NCBI GenBank assembly: GCA_905479105.1
Contig: CAJQLE010000004.1
Span: 186,001-250,000 of the forward strand
Length of the DNA stretch: 64,000 nucleotides
Reading direction: 5' to 3'
From: an uncultured Flavobacteriales bacterium
GTDB taxonomy: Bacteria; Bacteroidota; Bacteroidia; Flavobacteriales_G; Salibacteraceae
The notes under the pieces are model-generated. The model was not told the DNA's origin. It searched no databases and was given only the letters and a program-made list of their open reading frames with translations. Each line of letters starts with the position of its first letter. The first letter of the stretch is position 1. The position numbers and the translations under genes are program-made. This document shows, piece after piece, positions 18,761 to 27,628 of the stretch.

Positions 18761-20539
18761 GTGGAACAATCAGAATTTTATAATGCAAAGCTGAAATCGG
18801 AAAAGTCGATTCATGATGGATTGAAGAAAAGTGATCGTATTTTCTCAATGATTAGACTTCTGGTAGGTGCGTCTATGCTGATCAGTTTATATTTTTCATT
18901 GCTTCAACGAAGTGTCGTTTTTGGGATGATAGTTCTGATTGTAACCGTTGGATTTATTGCTGCAGTTGTGCTTCATAATCGCTTACGGAAAAAGCTTTTG
19001 CATCAATCTCGAATGTTGGATGTTATCAATGAAGAACTGCTTTATCTAAATGGTGATCTAAGTGGATTTGAAGATGGCGGAAACTTTAAAGACCCAGAAC
19101 ATCTTTATACTGAAGACTTAGATGTGTTTGGGAAAGGGTCTTTGTACCAGCGGATAGCAAGGGTTTTTTCTGCCAAAGCGAAGAAAAGGCTAGCCAATAG
19201 ATTAAAAGATAATGGAGCTCAAATTGACCTTGATCACCAAGCTACCGTCAAAGAATTAAGTGCTATGGCTGAATGGAGAATTCAGTATAGGGCGCTTGCG
19301 CATGGATTGGTTACCGATGATTTGTATAGCAGAATAAGGAATTGGATAGATTTTAAGTCTTCCAAAAGTTTGATTCTCAATCCAATCATTTCATGGGGTT
19401 TGAGCACATTATTCCCGATTGCAGTTGGGTTTATTTTAATCACAGGTAGATTCGATATGATTGACTGGTTATTGATTCCTTTTGGCCTGAATTTGTATTT
19501 GTTTTCAAGGCAGTTGAAGTCTTTGAGAAAGGATCAGGGTTTCATCGATAAAATTTCTGGTGATTTAGATTCTCATAAAGAATTATTGGAATTGATTCTG
19601 GCTCAAAAATGGTCTTCGAAAACCCTCAATGAGCTTCAGTTTGGATTGAAGCAAAATGGACAAGATGCTACTGAAATTCTTCGGAAACTCTCCAAAATTG
19701 CAAGTCGTCTTGATTCTTTGAATAATATGTTCGGAGCTTCTGTCTTCAATGGAATGTTTCTTTATCATTTACATGTCTACAGGTCGCTTCTTGATTGGAA
19801 AAAAGAACACGGAATTGCTTTGTTAGCATGGTTAGATGTTCAGGCCGAGATGGAGGTTTGGGTAGGTTTGGCATCTTTCGCCTTTAATAATCCTGACTTT
19901 GTTTATCCAGAGCCGTCTGATACTCCAGAATTGTCTGCAAAGCAGATCGGTCATCCATTTATAAATAAGAACAATCGAATTACCAATGACCTGACATTTG
20001 ATGGATTTAAATTGGTAATCTTGACAGGGTCAAATATGGCTGGGAAAAGCACTTTTCTGAGATCCTTGGGCATTAATATTATCCTGTCTAAACTTGGTCT
20101 CCCAGTTTGTGCGAAGGCAATGAGGCTCCCTCAAATGAAGCTTATGACCAGCATGAAGCCTCAGGATTCACTGAATGATAATCAGTCTTATTTTCAGGCT
20201 GAAATAGAACGGTTAAAAGTCTTAGTTGATGACTTAGATAAAGGGATGCTTTCCTTTATTTTATTGGATGAAATCCTCCGAGGAACCAATTCTGAAGATA
20301 AGCGAAATGGAACGATTGGATTTTTAGAAAAGATTAATCCGAAGCATTTGATGGGGCTTATCGCAACGCACGATATTGAAATCGCTGAGTTAACGTCTAA
20401 AAGTCCAACGATATACTCCAATAAGTATTTTGAATCGTATCAAAAGGATGGAGATCTTGTCTTTGACTATATTTTAAGGGATGGAGTTTGCCATACACCA
20501 AACGCCACCCAGCTGATGAAGATGAAGGGGATTATCTAG
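18761..20539 (+). CDS. MutS-family ATPase domain protein with predicted transmembrane helices
   Basis: Walker A VILTGSNMAGKSTFLRSLGINIILSKLGLPVCA, Walker B FILLDEILRGTNSEDK, LIATHDIEIAEL; hydrophobic segments MIRLLVGASMLISLYFSLL / VVFGMIVLIVTVGFIAAVVL / LSTLFPIAVGFILITG in the N-terminal half. Confidence 0.9.
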   Translation: MEQSEFYNAKLKSEKSIHDGLKKSDRIFSMIRLLVGASMLISLYFSLLQRSVVFGMIVLIVTVGFIAAVVLHNRLRKKLLHQSRMLDVINEELLYLNGDLSGFEDGGNFKDPEHLYTEDLDVFGKGSLYQRIARVFSAKAKKRLANRLKDNGAQIDLDHQATVKELSAMAEWRIQYRALAHGLVTDDLYSRIRNWIDFKSSKSLILNPIISWGLSTLFPIAVGFILITGRFDMIDWLLIPFGLNLYLFSRQLKSLRKDQGFIDKISGDLDSHKELLELILAQKWSSKTLNELQFGLKQNGQDATEILRKLSKIASRLDSLNNMFGASVFNGMFLYHLHVYRSLLDWKKEHGIALLAWLDVQAEMEVWVGLASFAFNNPDFVYPEPSDTPELSAKQIGHPFINKNNRITNDLTFDGFKLVILTGSNMAGKSTFLRSLGINIILSKLGLPVCAKAMRLPQMKLMTSMKPQDSLNDNQSYFQAEIERLKVLVDDLDKGMLSFILLDEILRGTNSEDKRNGTIGFLEKINPKHLMGLIATHDIEIAELTSKSPTIYSNKYFESYQKDGDLVFDYILRDGVCHTPNATQLMKMKGII

Positions 20540-20590: not shown

Positions 20591-21370
20591 GTGTGCATGA
20601 ACTTATTAATTAGAAAGCTTTTAGTTCTCCTACTTGCAGTATGTGCAATCGCTTCGTGCAAACACGATCCATATGAGGCTAAACAGATTCCTTTGGCAAT
20701 GCCTTTGAATGATTGTGACCCGGATTCTATCTATTTTCAAAAAGATGTTTTGCCAATAATCATGGCAAATTGTGTCTCTGGTTGTCATGATGAAGTAAAT
20801 GCGAGTGATGGAGTAGTTTTAACATCCTACAATAGAATTATAAGCACGGCAGACGTTAAGTCAGGTAATGCATCGAATAGTAAATTATATGAAGTTTTGA
20901 TTGAGTCAGATGCAGATGACAGAATGCCTCCGTCACCGAATGCTGCATTGAGTGCTGAGAATATTGAGATCATCAGAAAATGGATAGAGCAAGGTGCACT
21001 CAACAATGCCTGCAAGGTTGAGACTATTCCTATTGATACACTGCCGACAGATACGATCCCAACAGACACAACCACCAATGATACAACCACTGCTGGTTGC
21101 AATCCAATTAATGTTTCCTTTGCGAATGATGTCACTCCTATTTTCAGCTCTTATGGTTGCGCAGGTTGTCATTCTATTGCTAGCAGCGGAGGTGGAGTAA
21201 CTTTAGAAACTTATACCGGTACTAAGATTGTTGCTGATAATGGAAGGCTGATGGGGGCGATTAATCATGCTACTGGTTTTTCTGCTATGCCTCAAGGTGC
21301 AGCGAAAATGGATTCTTGTGATATTGCAACCATTCAAATTTGGATTAACGAAGGAACTTTAGATAATTAA
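20591..21370 (+). CDS. Cytochrome c-like lipoprotein with two heme-binding motifs (CVSGCH, CAGCH)
   Basis: Lipobox-like AVCAIASCKH; CVSGCHDE (CX3CH) and CAGCHSI (CX2CH); Thr/Asp/Pro linker PIDTLPTDTIPTDTTTNDTTT. Better start may be the ATG at 20597. Confidence 0.8.
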   Translation: MCMNLLIRKLLVLLLAVCAIASCKHDPYEAKQIPLAMPLNDCDPDSIYFQKDVLPIIMANCVSGCHDEVNASDGVVLTSYNRIISTADVKSGNASNSKLYEVLIESDADDRMPPSPNAALSAENIEIIRKWIEQGALNNACKVETIPIDTLPTDTIPTDTTTNDTTTAGCNPINVSFANDVTPIFSSYGCAGCHSIASSGGGVTLETYTGTKIVADNGRLMGAINHATGFSAMPQGAAKMDSCDIATIQIWINEGTLDN

Positions 21371-21762
21371 TGAAAAGAATTACATCTGCAACCGTACTGT
21401 TTGTCTCACTTATAGCTGTTACACTTTTTTCCGAAGGTTGTTACTATGATAACGCCAAAGATTTGTATCCAATGGATACCATTTATGTGAATGACTCACT
21501 CATAGATTCAACCACCACATATGTTTACGCGGATATTGAATCAATCATTTCATCTAATTGTGCCACTTCAGGATGCCATGCTGCTGGAAATGGCGCTGGA
21601 AGACAGCCGCTGTCTACATATAATGAAGTAAAATCAGCTATTGAGAGCTTTACACTTAAAAATAGAGTTGAAAGCGGAACAATGCCCAAAGGTTTTAGTC
21701 TGTCCAATACCGATAAGACAGCCTTAATTAATTGGATTAATCAGGGCTATCCAGAAAATTAA
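21370..21762 (+). CDS. Cytochrome c-like lipoprotein with CX4CH motif
   Basis: MKRITSATVLFVSLIAVTLFSEGCYYD; CATSGCHAAGNGAG; TMPKG...INWINQGYPEN resembles the second half of the upstream protein. Confidence 0.78.
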   Translation: MKRITSATVLFVSLIAVTLFSEGCYYDNAKDLYPMDTIYVNDSLIDSTTTYVYADIESIISSNCATSGCHAAGNGAGRQPLSTYNEVKSAIESFTLKNRVESGTMPKGFSLSNTDKTALINWINQGYPEN

Positions 21763-21772
21763 TACAATCAAA

Positions 21773-22186
21773 ATGAAAGGATTTTTAAAAACACTAATTA
21801 TTGCCCTTCCTCTGGCATTGTTGTCATGCGGGCATGCTGAAACAGCTGATGAAGAGGCTGCTTTTGTAGTTTCAGGAGATGAAATTGTACAGTCCTTTCT
21901 AGACAACGAGCAAGAATCAGGTGCGAAGTATATCGATCAAATTATACAAGTTACAGGTCCAATTATGGAATTGTCTAAGGAGAATGGTCAAGTCACCTCG
22001 GTTATGATATCATCAGATGAATACAATATTGTCAGCTGCACATTTCAAAACCCAGTGGATTTAGATGAAATTTCTGGAGATCAGATCACCGTTAAAGGTG
22101 TTTGTTCTGGTTTTTTAGGGGATGCTTCATCCATGATTCCAGGCGGAACTGTAGAGCTTAAAAGATCTTCATTAGTCATTCAATAA
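21773..22186 (+). CDS. OB-fold (tRNA_anti-like) putative lipoprotein
   Basis: MKGFLKTLIIALPLALLSCGHAE lipobox; YIDQIIQVTGPIMELSKENGQVTSVMIS...ISGDQITVKGVCSGFLGD. Confidence 0.7.
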   Translation: MKGFLKTLIIALPLALLSCGHAETADEEAAFVVSGDEIVQSFLDNEQESGAKYIDQIIQVTGPIMELSKENGQVTSVMISSDEYNIVSCTFQNPVDLDEISGDQITVKGVCSGFLGDASSMIPGGTVELKRSSLVIQ

Positions 22187-22194
22187 ATTCAACC

Positions 22195-22752
22195 ATGAAA
22201 AAAATAATTTTAACTCTTGTCCTTATTCAGACTCTAGGACAGGTTTCATTTGCTCAAGATCGATATTTCACAAGAGAAGGAAGTGTTAGCTTCTTTTCAG
22301 CTACTCCAATTGAGAATATTGAGGCTAATAATGAAAAGCTTCAAAGTGTCGTTGATGTCTCCACCGGTGCATTTGAGTTTGCAGCTTTGATTAAGTCGTT
22401 TGAGTTTGATAAGGCTTTGATGGAAGAGCATTTCAATGAAAATTATATGGAGTCGAATACTCATCCAAAAGCCAATTTTCGCGGAAATATTGAGAATATA
22501 GCTGATTTAAAGGCAAAAAATTATCCAGCCGATGCAACAGCAGTTGCGAAGGGAAAGATGACCATTCATGGTGTTGAGAAGGATGTTGAAATCCCAGCAC
22601 AATTGCTAAAAGATGCAGATGGCATCAAGGTCGTTTGTAAGTTCAATGTGAACCCAGAAGATTATAAAATCGCTATTCCTAATGCGGTTAGAGATAAAAT
22701 TGCCAAGGATATTGAAGTGAACGTAGAAGCACTTCTTAAATCTATGAAATAA
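22195..22752 (+). CDS. YceI family protein
   Basis: SFFSATPIENIEANNEKLQSVVDVSTGAFEFAALIKSFEFDKALMEEHFNENYMESNTHPKANFRG...GKMTIHGVEKDVEIPA. Confidence 0.9.
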   Translation: MKKIILTLVLIQTLGQVSFAQDRYFTREGSVSFFSATPIENIEANNEKLQSVVDVSTGAFEFAALIKSFEFDKALMEEHFNENYMESNTHPKANFRGNIENIADLKAKNYPADATAVAKGKMTIHGVEKDVEIPAQLLKDADGIKVVCKFNVNPEDYKIAIPNAVRDKIAKDIEVNVEALLKSMK

Positions 22753-22758
22753 CAACCT

Positions 22759-23649
22759 ATGACATTTCATAACCTACTATTTTCCTGTGTTTTGATGGCA
22801 AGTTCATTGGTTTTAAATGCTCAAGAAAGTATGCTGGATTTGCTTTCGGATGATGAGCCCACAGTGGATTATGCTACTGCTGGTTTTAAGACCACTAGAA
22901 TTATTAATGGACATTCCTTTGAAATGAATTCGGAGGGTGTACTTGATTTTAAAATCTCTCACCGTTTTGGCCGCTTGAATGGTGGAGCTTATGAGCTTTT
23001 TGGTTTGGATGCTGCTTCCATTAGAATTGGCTTGGATTATGGCGTAACTCCTTGGTTAAATGTTGGAGTAGGCAGAAGCAGTGTAGGTAAAGTGTATGAT
23101 GGTTTTGTTAAGATGAAATTCTTGCGTCAGCAAACTGGAAAGAGAAACATCCCAATATCAATGCTTTGGGTTTCTGATATGGCCGTGAGTTCTCTCAAAA
23201 ATACTAACTCAGAAATAGAGCCTTACCTCAATTCTCATAGACTGTTTTACACGCATCAATTGATTGTTGGTCGTAAGTTCACTGATGGAATATCCGTTCA
23301 GTTTATGCCTTCGATAGTGCATAGAAATTTCGTTATGACCAGAGCAGAGTCTAACGATGTTCTTGTTCTTGGAGTAGGAGGTCGCATGAAGCTTTCTAAG
23401 CGCCTTGCGCTAAATGTGGAATACTATTACACTTTGCCAAATCAGCTTGATCCAAGGTATACCAATTCATTGTCAATAGGTTTTGATATTGAAACTGGAG
23501 GACACGTTTTTCAATTGCATTTTACGAATTCAACTGGAATGGTTGAAAATGCATTTATGACGGAAACAACGGGCGATTGGCTCAAAGGTGATATTCACTT
23601 TGGCTTTAATGTCAGCCGAGTATTCACACTTTATCGTCCCAAAGGTTAA
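22759..23649 (+). CDS. DUF5777-like outer-membrane beta-barrel protein
   Basis: Signal peptide; FKTTRIINGHSFEMNSEGVLDFKISHRFGRLNGGAYELFGLDAASIRIGLDYGVTPWLNVGVGRSS; alternating amphipathic strands. Confidence 0.8.
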   Translation: MTFHNLLFSCVLMASSLVLNAQESMLDLLSDDEPTVDYATAGFKTTRIINGHSFEMNSEGVLDFKISHRFGRLNGGAYELFGLDAASIRIGLDYGVTPWLNVGVGRSSVGKVYDGFVKMKFLRQQTGKRNIPISMLWVSDMAVSSLKNTNSEIEPYLNSHRLFYTHQLIVGRKFTDGISVQFMPSIVHRNFVMTRAESNDVLVLGVGGRMKLSKRLALNVEYYYTLPNQLDPRYTNSLSIGFDIETGGHVFQLHFTNSTGMVENAFMTETTGDWLKGDIHFGFNVSRVFTLYRPKG

Positions 23650-27127: not shown

Positions 27128-27628
27128 ATGGCTTCAATTACATTTAAAGGATCTACAATAAAAACTGTTGGTGAATTGCCTAAAGTAGGGGAGCAAGCAC
27201 CAGACTTCTCTTTGACAAACGACAGCTTGCAGGATGTTTCATTGAAAGACTTCGCAGGAAAGAAATTAGTACTGAATATTTTCCCAAGTATTGATACCGG
27301 AATTTGTGCTATGAGTGCAAGACAGTTCAATAGTGAAGCTTCAAATTTGGAAAATACTGTTGTAATGAACGTTTCAAAAGATCTTCCTTTCGCTCAAAAG
27401 AGATTTTGCGGAGCAGAGGGTTTGTAGAACGTGAAGAATGCTTCAGAATTCAAAAACCTCGGGTTCTCTTCTAACTACAACGTTATAATGGAGGGAGGAC
27501 CTTTTGTAGGATTGTTCAGTCGCGCAGTAGTGGTAATTGATGAAAATGGCAAAGTGATCTACACAGAACAAGTTCCGGAGATAGTTCAAGAACCAGACTA
27601 CAAAAATGCTCTTGCTTCCTTGAAATAA
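27128..27628 (+). pseudogene. tpx: Thiol peroxidase (Tpx) interrupted by an in-frame TAG at 27425-27427
   Basis: [51 protein letters not shown]...[84 protein letters not shown]; both halves share one frame and together cover a full-length Tpx. Confidence 0.85.

Follow-up and report, generated by a model that had tools for sequence, protein, structure and literature searches.

A DUF5777 Outer-Membrane Barrel Encoded with Small Cytochromes and YceI: A Possible Redox Relay in Bacteroidota

Results

The window that we analyzed is a stretch of 64,000 nucleotides from an uncultured Flavobacteriales bacterium, and the closest named relatives of its genome are Salibacteraceae/Flavobacteriales MAGs. 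An ORF check of this window identified five co-directional frames at ~20,597–23,649 with gaps of −1, 10, 8, and 6 bp. The preliminary description of this DNA had announced five tightly packed genes on one strand, coding for two c-type cytochrome-like lipoproteins, an OB-fold lipoprotein, a YceI-family protein, and a DUF5777-like barrel, and all five frames were indeed recovered there with spacings between −1 and 10 bp. It had also let the cluster begin at 20591. For the first gene, ATG 20597 is a more probable start than GTG 20591 and yields a protein with a clean signal peptide and a lipobox (Cys21).

This first gene (20597..21370, + strand) encodes CytA, a predicted diheme c-type cytochrome lipoprotein of 257 residues with a Pfam match to PSCyt1 (PF07635, 4.7e-9, above cutoff). 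CytA contains the heme motifs CVSGCH at position 59 and CAGCH at position 188, followed downstream by Met110-Pro and Met231-Pro, respectively. The second gene (21370..21762, +) codes for CytB, a predicted monoheme lipoprotein of 130 residues (lipobox Cys24) with the CX4CH motif CATSGCH at position 64 and Met105-Pro downstream. The only Pfam match of CytB is PF13442 at 0.0049, which is below cutoff; a search of the PDB with the CytB profile (A2) returned cytochrome c6 and hydrazine synthase alpha. By their motifs, the two proteins together would bind three hemes, and the Met-Pro pair that follows each motif can supply a distal ligand, so that both sequences carry the C-Xn-CH plus distal Met of class I-like c-type cytochromes. 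An AlphaFold2 model of CytA gave no convincing structural match, and the sequence profile was more informative about these cytochromes than this model.

The remaining three genes are assigned by Pfam. The OB-fold lipoprotein (21773..22186, +) matches PF12869 (tRNA_anti-like, 6e-13). The next product (22195..22752, +) is a member of the YceI family (PF04264, 1.5e-14, 55 bits with a cutoff of 23.7) and has a signal peptide and no lipobox. The last gene (22759..23649, +) encodes a DUF5777 outer-membrane β-barrel of 296 residues that matches PF19089 over its full length (2.8e-93, 312 bits over model positions 1–247 of 247). The genome contains one DUF5777 gene and four YceI genes, and its single NrfD gene resides in an ordinary ACIII-like cluster away from the operon. 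A promoter scan of the locus gave a signal no better than chance.

A MutS domain V ATPase is encoded 51 bp upstream of the cluster (18761..20539, +). Homologues occupy this place in only seven of the surveyed loci, and the protein is probably not part of the module. Elsewhere in the window, a thiol-peroxidase-like gene (27128–27627) contains one in-frame TAG (27425–27427) with homologous-looking sequence beyond it; this frame may represent a pseudogene, a sequencing error, or a case of readthrough.

Of 41 close relatives, 39 encode DUF5777, as do 116 of 297 genomes from a phylum-wide sample. We scored neighborhoods of ~15 kb around these genes using profiles grown from the window proteins. In the dereplicated set of 126 loci, 99 contain both a cytochrome and YceI, and in only two are a cytochrome, YceI, and other heme proteins all missing within 2.5 kb. 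Therefore, the objection that these genes do not co-occur in relatives fails, and the conservation of DUF5777, YceI, and small cytochromes across the phylum argues that the arrangement in the window is not due to chance. The same loci show cytochromes at 0.152 per kb near DUF5777 versus 0.0025 per kb far from it (~60-fold), and YceI at 0.121 versus 0.0017 per kb (~70-fold). YceI and DUF5777 share a strand in 123 of 129 cases with a median gap of 6 bp. The OB-fold lipoprotein is present in 41 of the 126 loci and is an accessory component. Automatic scoring placed a redox protein within 3.5 kb of DUF5777 in 149 of 165 loci; the 16 exceptions include three in which another scoring detected a cytochrome and four that are located at contig ends. 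Phylum-wide counts of PF01578 (cytochrome c assembly, 295/297 genomes) and PF00115 (COX1, 284/297) were set aside since these families are too widespread to discriminate. A 487-residue "YceI" frame in locus L212 was excluded as apparently spurious.

The C-Xn-CH motif with n = 2–6 is kept in all 173 cytochrome-family neighbors of DUF5777. The spacing of the heme loop varies among these relatives, with n = 2 at 98 sites, n = 3 at 6, n = 4 at 96, n = 5 at 4, and n = 6 at 2. Three CytB orthologues have an unusual CX5CH motif (L186:6517-6909, L187:6538-6900, L189:6505-6873), while their close relatives have CX4CH.

Many loci with no apparent cytochrome encode a different small redox lipoprotein in this position; in 11 loci, the cytochrome beside DUF5777 and YceI is replaced by a Rieske or plastocyanin-type lipoprotein. 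Pfam assigns Rieske domains (PF00355) in L132, L134, L151, L153, L170, and L175, and a plastocyanin/azurin-type cupredoxin lipoprotein (PF00127) occupies the same slot in L131. A profile search found Rieske proteins in 11 YceI loci, 10 of which contain no cytochrome. On a tree of 164 DUF5777 sequences, built by a quick method that leaves 51 of 161 inner branches open, the occupant of the slot changed at least eight times, and the Rieske label alone accounts for five changes. These folds are unrelated and have only one-electron chemistry in common, and their exchange is the strongest argument for an electron-transfer function of the slot. In addition, seven genomes (G070 and six more) encode a cytochrome fused to the N-terminus of DUF5777. 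Six of the seven fusion proteins are 52–57% identical to the fusion in L148, and the N-terminal heme domain carries a CX4CH motif. Because of this N-terminal position, the fused cytochrome domain is probably periplasmic.

A described export signal of surface-exposed lipoproteins consists of a polar or positive residue followed by acidic residues directly after the lipidated Cys (PMC5080379). Two or more acidic residues follow this Cys in 62% of the monoheme lipoproteins and in 30% of the other lipoproteins in the loci. The family trend of the monoheme proteins (CYYDNEEELYP) resembles the published signal and suggests surface exposure for many of these cytochromes. The pattern is weak in CytA and CytB of the window and absent from the Rieske partners. 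The fused cytochromes look periplasmic, whereas many others carry the surface-export pattern.

The DUF5777 family has diverged to a median pairwise identity of 0.31. His68 and His249, each part of an HxF motif, are nevertheless conserved in 163 of 164 proteins. An AlphaFold2 model of the window barrel, computed from 14 aligned sequences, predicts ~12 strands; its confidence is moderate (pLDDT 67, pTM 0.64). Foldseek matched this model to generic porins only, with NanC giving the best TM-score (0.61 by target length), and a sequence search of the PDB with DUF5777 gave no match. Hydropathy and the predicted topology position the two histidines on lipid-facing hydrophobic stripes near opposite edges of the membrane. 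For this reason, a bis-His heme inside the barrel is not favored, and this placement suggests that the residues contact lipid, quinone, or another subunit. In our reading, the invariant Gly282 and Phe283 fit the C-terminal β-signal of outer-membrane proteins. In one genome (G010:C14; L068/L189), the DUF5777 gene is split into two frames by a frameshift or an assembly error.

Several DUF5777 paralogues occur in other contexts. The arrangement [cytochrome]-[DUF5777]-[4Fe-4S]-[NrfD] was found in eight loci, and none of these contains YceI. One of this type, L076, encodes an NrfD closest to DsrP/QrcD and a hexaheme lipoprotein that matches the MtrC/MtrF domain PF22113. In genome G037, contig C45, an operon with an ArrA-like catalytic subunit (876 bits, under the equivalog cutoff of 1600) lies directly upstream of a cytochrome and DUF5777 (L204:15176-18010, L162:1120-2214). 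This operon also includes a 4Fe-4S subunit and a nitrate-reductase-delta/TorD-like chaperone and adjoins genes that read as arsenic-resistance genes. The Fe-S subunit has a C-terminal T9SS sorting domain, which suggests that this ArrA-like arsenate reductase is a cell-surface enzyme. DUF5777 adjoins a nitric oxide reductase in L098, and L218 encodes an ethylbenzene-dehydrogenase-type (EB_dh) lipoprotein. The genes directly upstream of a fused cytochrome–DUF5777 gene in L209 (6203-9120) encode MbnP, an MbnH/MauG-type diheme protein, and a sulfite-oxidase-type molybdoprotein, and the gene sizes are the same in L210. T9SS-tailed plastocyanins are encoded in L108, L161, and L176. Near another DUF5777 gene, a heme-motif protein with a Reeler/choice-of-anchor domain and a T9SS tail (L086:5504-6289), which has relatives in six more loci, is possibly an extracellular cytochrome.

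Discussion

The preliminary description had proposed that this cluster forms an outer-membrane redox conduit in the manner of porin–cytochrome systems. What stands from this proposal is a redox module at the envelope, which is strongly supported by the conserved neighborhood, the exchange of the cytochrome for Rieske and cupredoxin proteins, the cytochrome–barrel fusions, and the respiratory operon contexts. We are confident that the module has some redox activity at the envelope. The likeness to porin–cytochrome systems, on the other hand, is unproven, given a barrel with ~12 predicted strands and single-heme partners in place of a large barrel around a multiheme wire.

One specific arrangement, to which we give about even chances, is that the DUF5777 system acts as a modular outer-membrane redox relay. 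The small DUF5777 barrel in the outer membrane would provide a dock for one-electron carriers. Most genomes would use a c-type cytochrome lipoprotein for this purpose, and others a Rieske or cupredoxin lipoprotein or a fused cytochrome. In the YceI type represented by the window, YceI would act as a periplasmic carrier of a hydrophobic, quinone-like kind and link the pool of the inner membrane with the carrier on the barrel. Other types may employ an NrfD/4Fe-4S quinol dehydrogenase together with a periplasmic cytochrome in place of YceI. Electrons would then be delivered to, or taken from, partners on the outer membrane or outside it, with the cytochromes presumably at the surface. Counting against such a relay are the barrel of ~12 predicted strands with its monoheme partners, which form no evident heme chain across the membrane, the moderate confidence of the barrel model, and, as regards heme in the lumen, the lipid-facing stripes on which the invariant histidines lie. 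The mixed signs of cytochrome topology also count against it, with fused domains that look periplasmic, many others with the surface-export pattern, Rieske partners that do not have this pattern, and only a weak form of it in CytA and CytB.

A broader proposal is that DUF5777 represents a novel type of hub for electron transfer at the outer membrane, widespread in Bacteroidota. Such a hub would combine a slot shared by c-heme, Rieske, and cupredoxin carriers, electron sources in the form of YceI-borne quinone or NrfD, and extracellular redox partners exported by the T9SS. We advance this combination only tentatively and with less conviction than the relay. DUF5777 is common in the phylum, yet it is named in no paper of the literature that we searched. 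If the relay is correct, electrons can take a simple single-heme, Rieske, or copper path at the outer membrane of many Bacteroidota, and culturable species would allow tests of how surface and T9SS-exported redox proteins obtain their electrons.

The main rival to the relay is an outer-membrane antioxidant system. YceI would bind oxidized isoprenoids, oxidized quinones, or lipid peroxyl species, which the redox lipoproteins would reduce, and the barrel would handle outer-membrane lipid or quinone, similar to the function of BcnA-LcoA. Other members among the YceI lipocalins are known to bind isoprenoids and ubiquinone-8, and BcnA together with LcoA reduces lipid peroxidation in Burkholderia (PMC9113575). 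YceI is also the most frequent partner of DUF5777, and the lipid-facing His68 and His249 could meet the head group of a lipid or quinone. However, DUF5777 copies without YceI occur in respiratory or metal contexts with NrfD, ArrA-like, NOR, and MbnPH genes, and the window operon contains no cytochrome b561. We judge this antioxidant role, including the part assigned to the barrel, to be rather unlikely. A Riemerella YceI gene that is induced by iron limitation (PMC5429918) was set aside for want of an established link to the DUF5777 module.

Assimilatory metal handling, with the barrel as an iron or copper channel and surface redox proteins that reduce or oxidize the metal for uptake, appears considerably less probable still. 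This explanation could account for the fused copy of L209, whose operon also encodes MbnP and an MbnH/MauG-type diheme protein (L210 has the same gene sizes), and for the cupredoxins among the neighbors, but metal genes occur in only a small minority of loci and no conserved family of metal transporters or regulators stands out among the neighbors. A stricter version of the relay would let electrons cross the barrel lumen from one cytochrome to another on the opposite side, which is the mechanism proposed for Cyc2. Natural fusion proteins, in which a cytochrome precedes the barrel, and the different domain counts of the two cytochrome genes in the window are consistent with this idea. In contrast, the barrel has no lumenal cofactor motif, its invariant histidines are predicted on the outer face, its ~12 predicted strands are fewer than the 16 of Cyc2, and no cofactor identified in the system bridges the trans-membrane distance. 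Lumenal transfer thus seems doubtful, about as improbable as the antioxidant role. The modular relay, in which the slot beside the barrel hosts interchangeable one-electron carriers, is the reading that we prefer and compare with known systems below.

Cyc2 of iron oxidizers is a fused cytochrome–porin with 16 strands (PMC8406198). Like Cyc2, the DUF5777 system combines a single c-type heme domain with an outer-membrane barrel, and the seven Bacteroidota fusions have the same order with the cytochrome at the N-terminus. Unlike Cyc2, the window encodes cytochromes and barrel as separate genes, fusion being confined to other genomes, and the barrel has ~12 predicted strands in a model of moderate confidence. 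YceI and OB-fold partners, a larger heme domain, and CXnCH motifs with n = 2–6 set the DUF5777 system further apart. The Cyc2 motif P-x-FAR-[QK]-[TY] before the heme site was found in none of 180 proteins, including the fused ones. Since this signature is absent and the strand count appears lower, the cytochrome–DUF5777 fusions may work like Cyc2 without being members of that family.

MtrCAB/PCC systems also comprise an outer-membrane barrel encoded with c-type cytochromes, and the hexaheme lipoprotein in L076 has an MtrC/MtrF domain. However, MtrAB-type systems are characterized by a large MtrB barrel and a multiheme periplasmic cytochrome, whereas the window contains a small barrel of 296 residues and proteins with one or two heme motifs; a multiheme MtrA-like wire is absent here and in most loci. 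BcnA-LcoA pairs a YceI lipocalin with cytochrome b561 (PMC9113575) and resembles the cluster in that YceI is encoded with a cytochrome and serves an envelope redox function. The window differs by c-type lipoprotein cytochromes instead of b561, a domain that Pfam detected in none of the operon genes, and by the additional outer-membrane barrel. Finally, the window operon contains no NrfD or 4Fe-4S subunits as found in the Alternative complex III/Qrc/Dsr-type quinol oxidoreductases, but related NrfD and 4Fe-4S proteins are encoded with DUF5777 in the eight loci described above.
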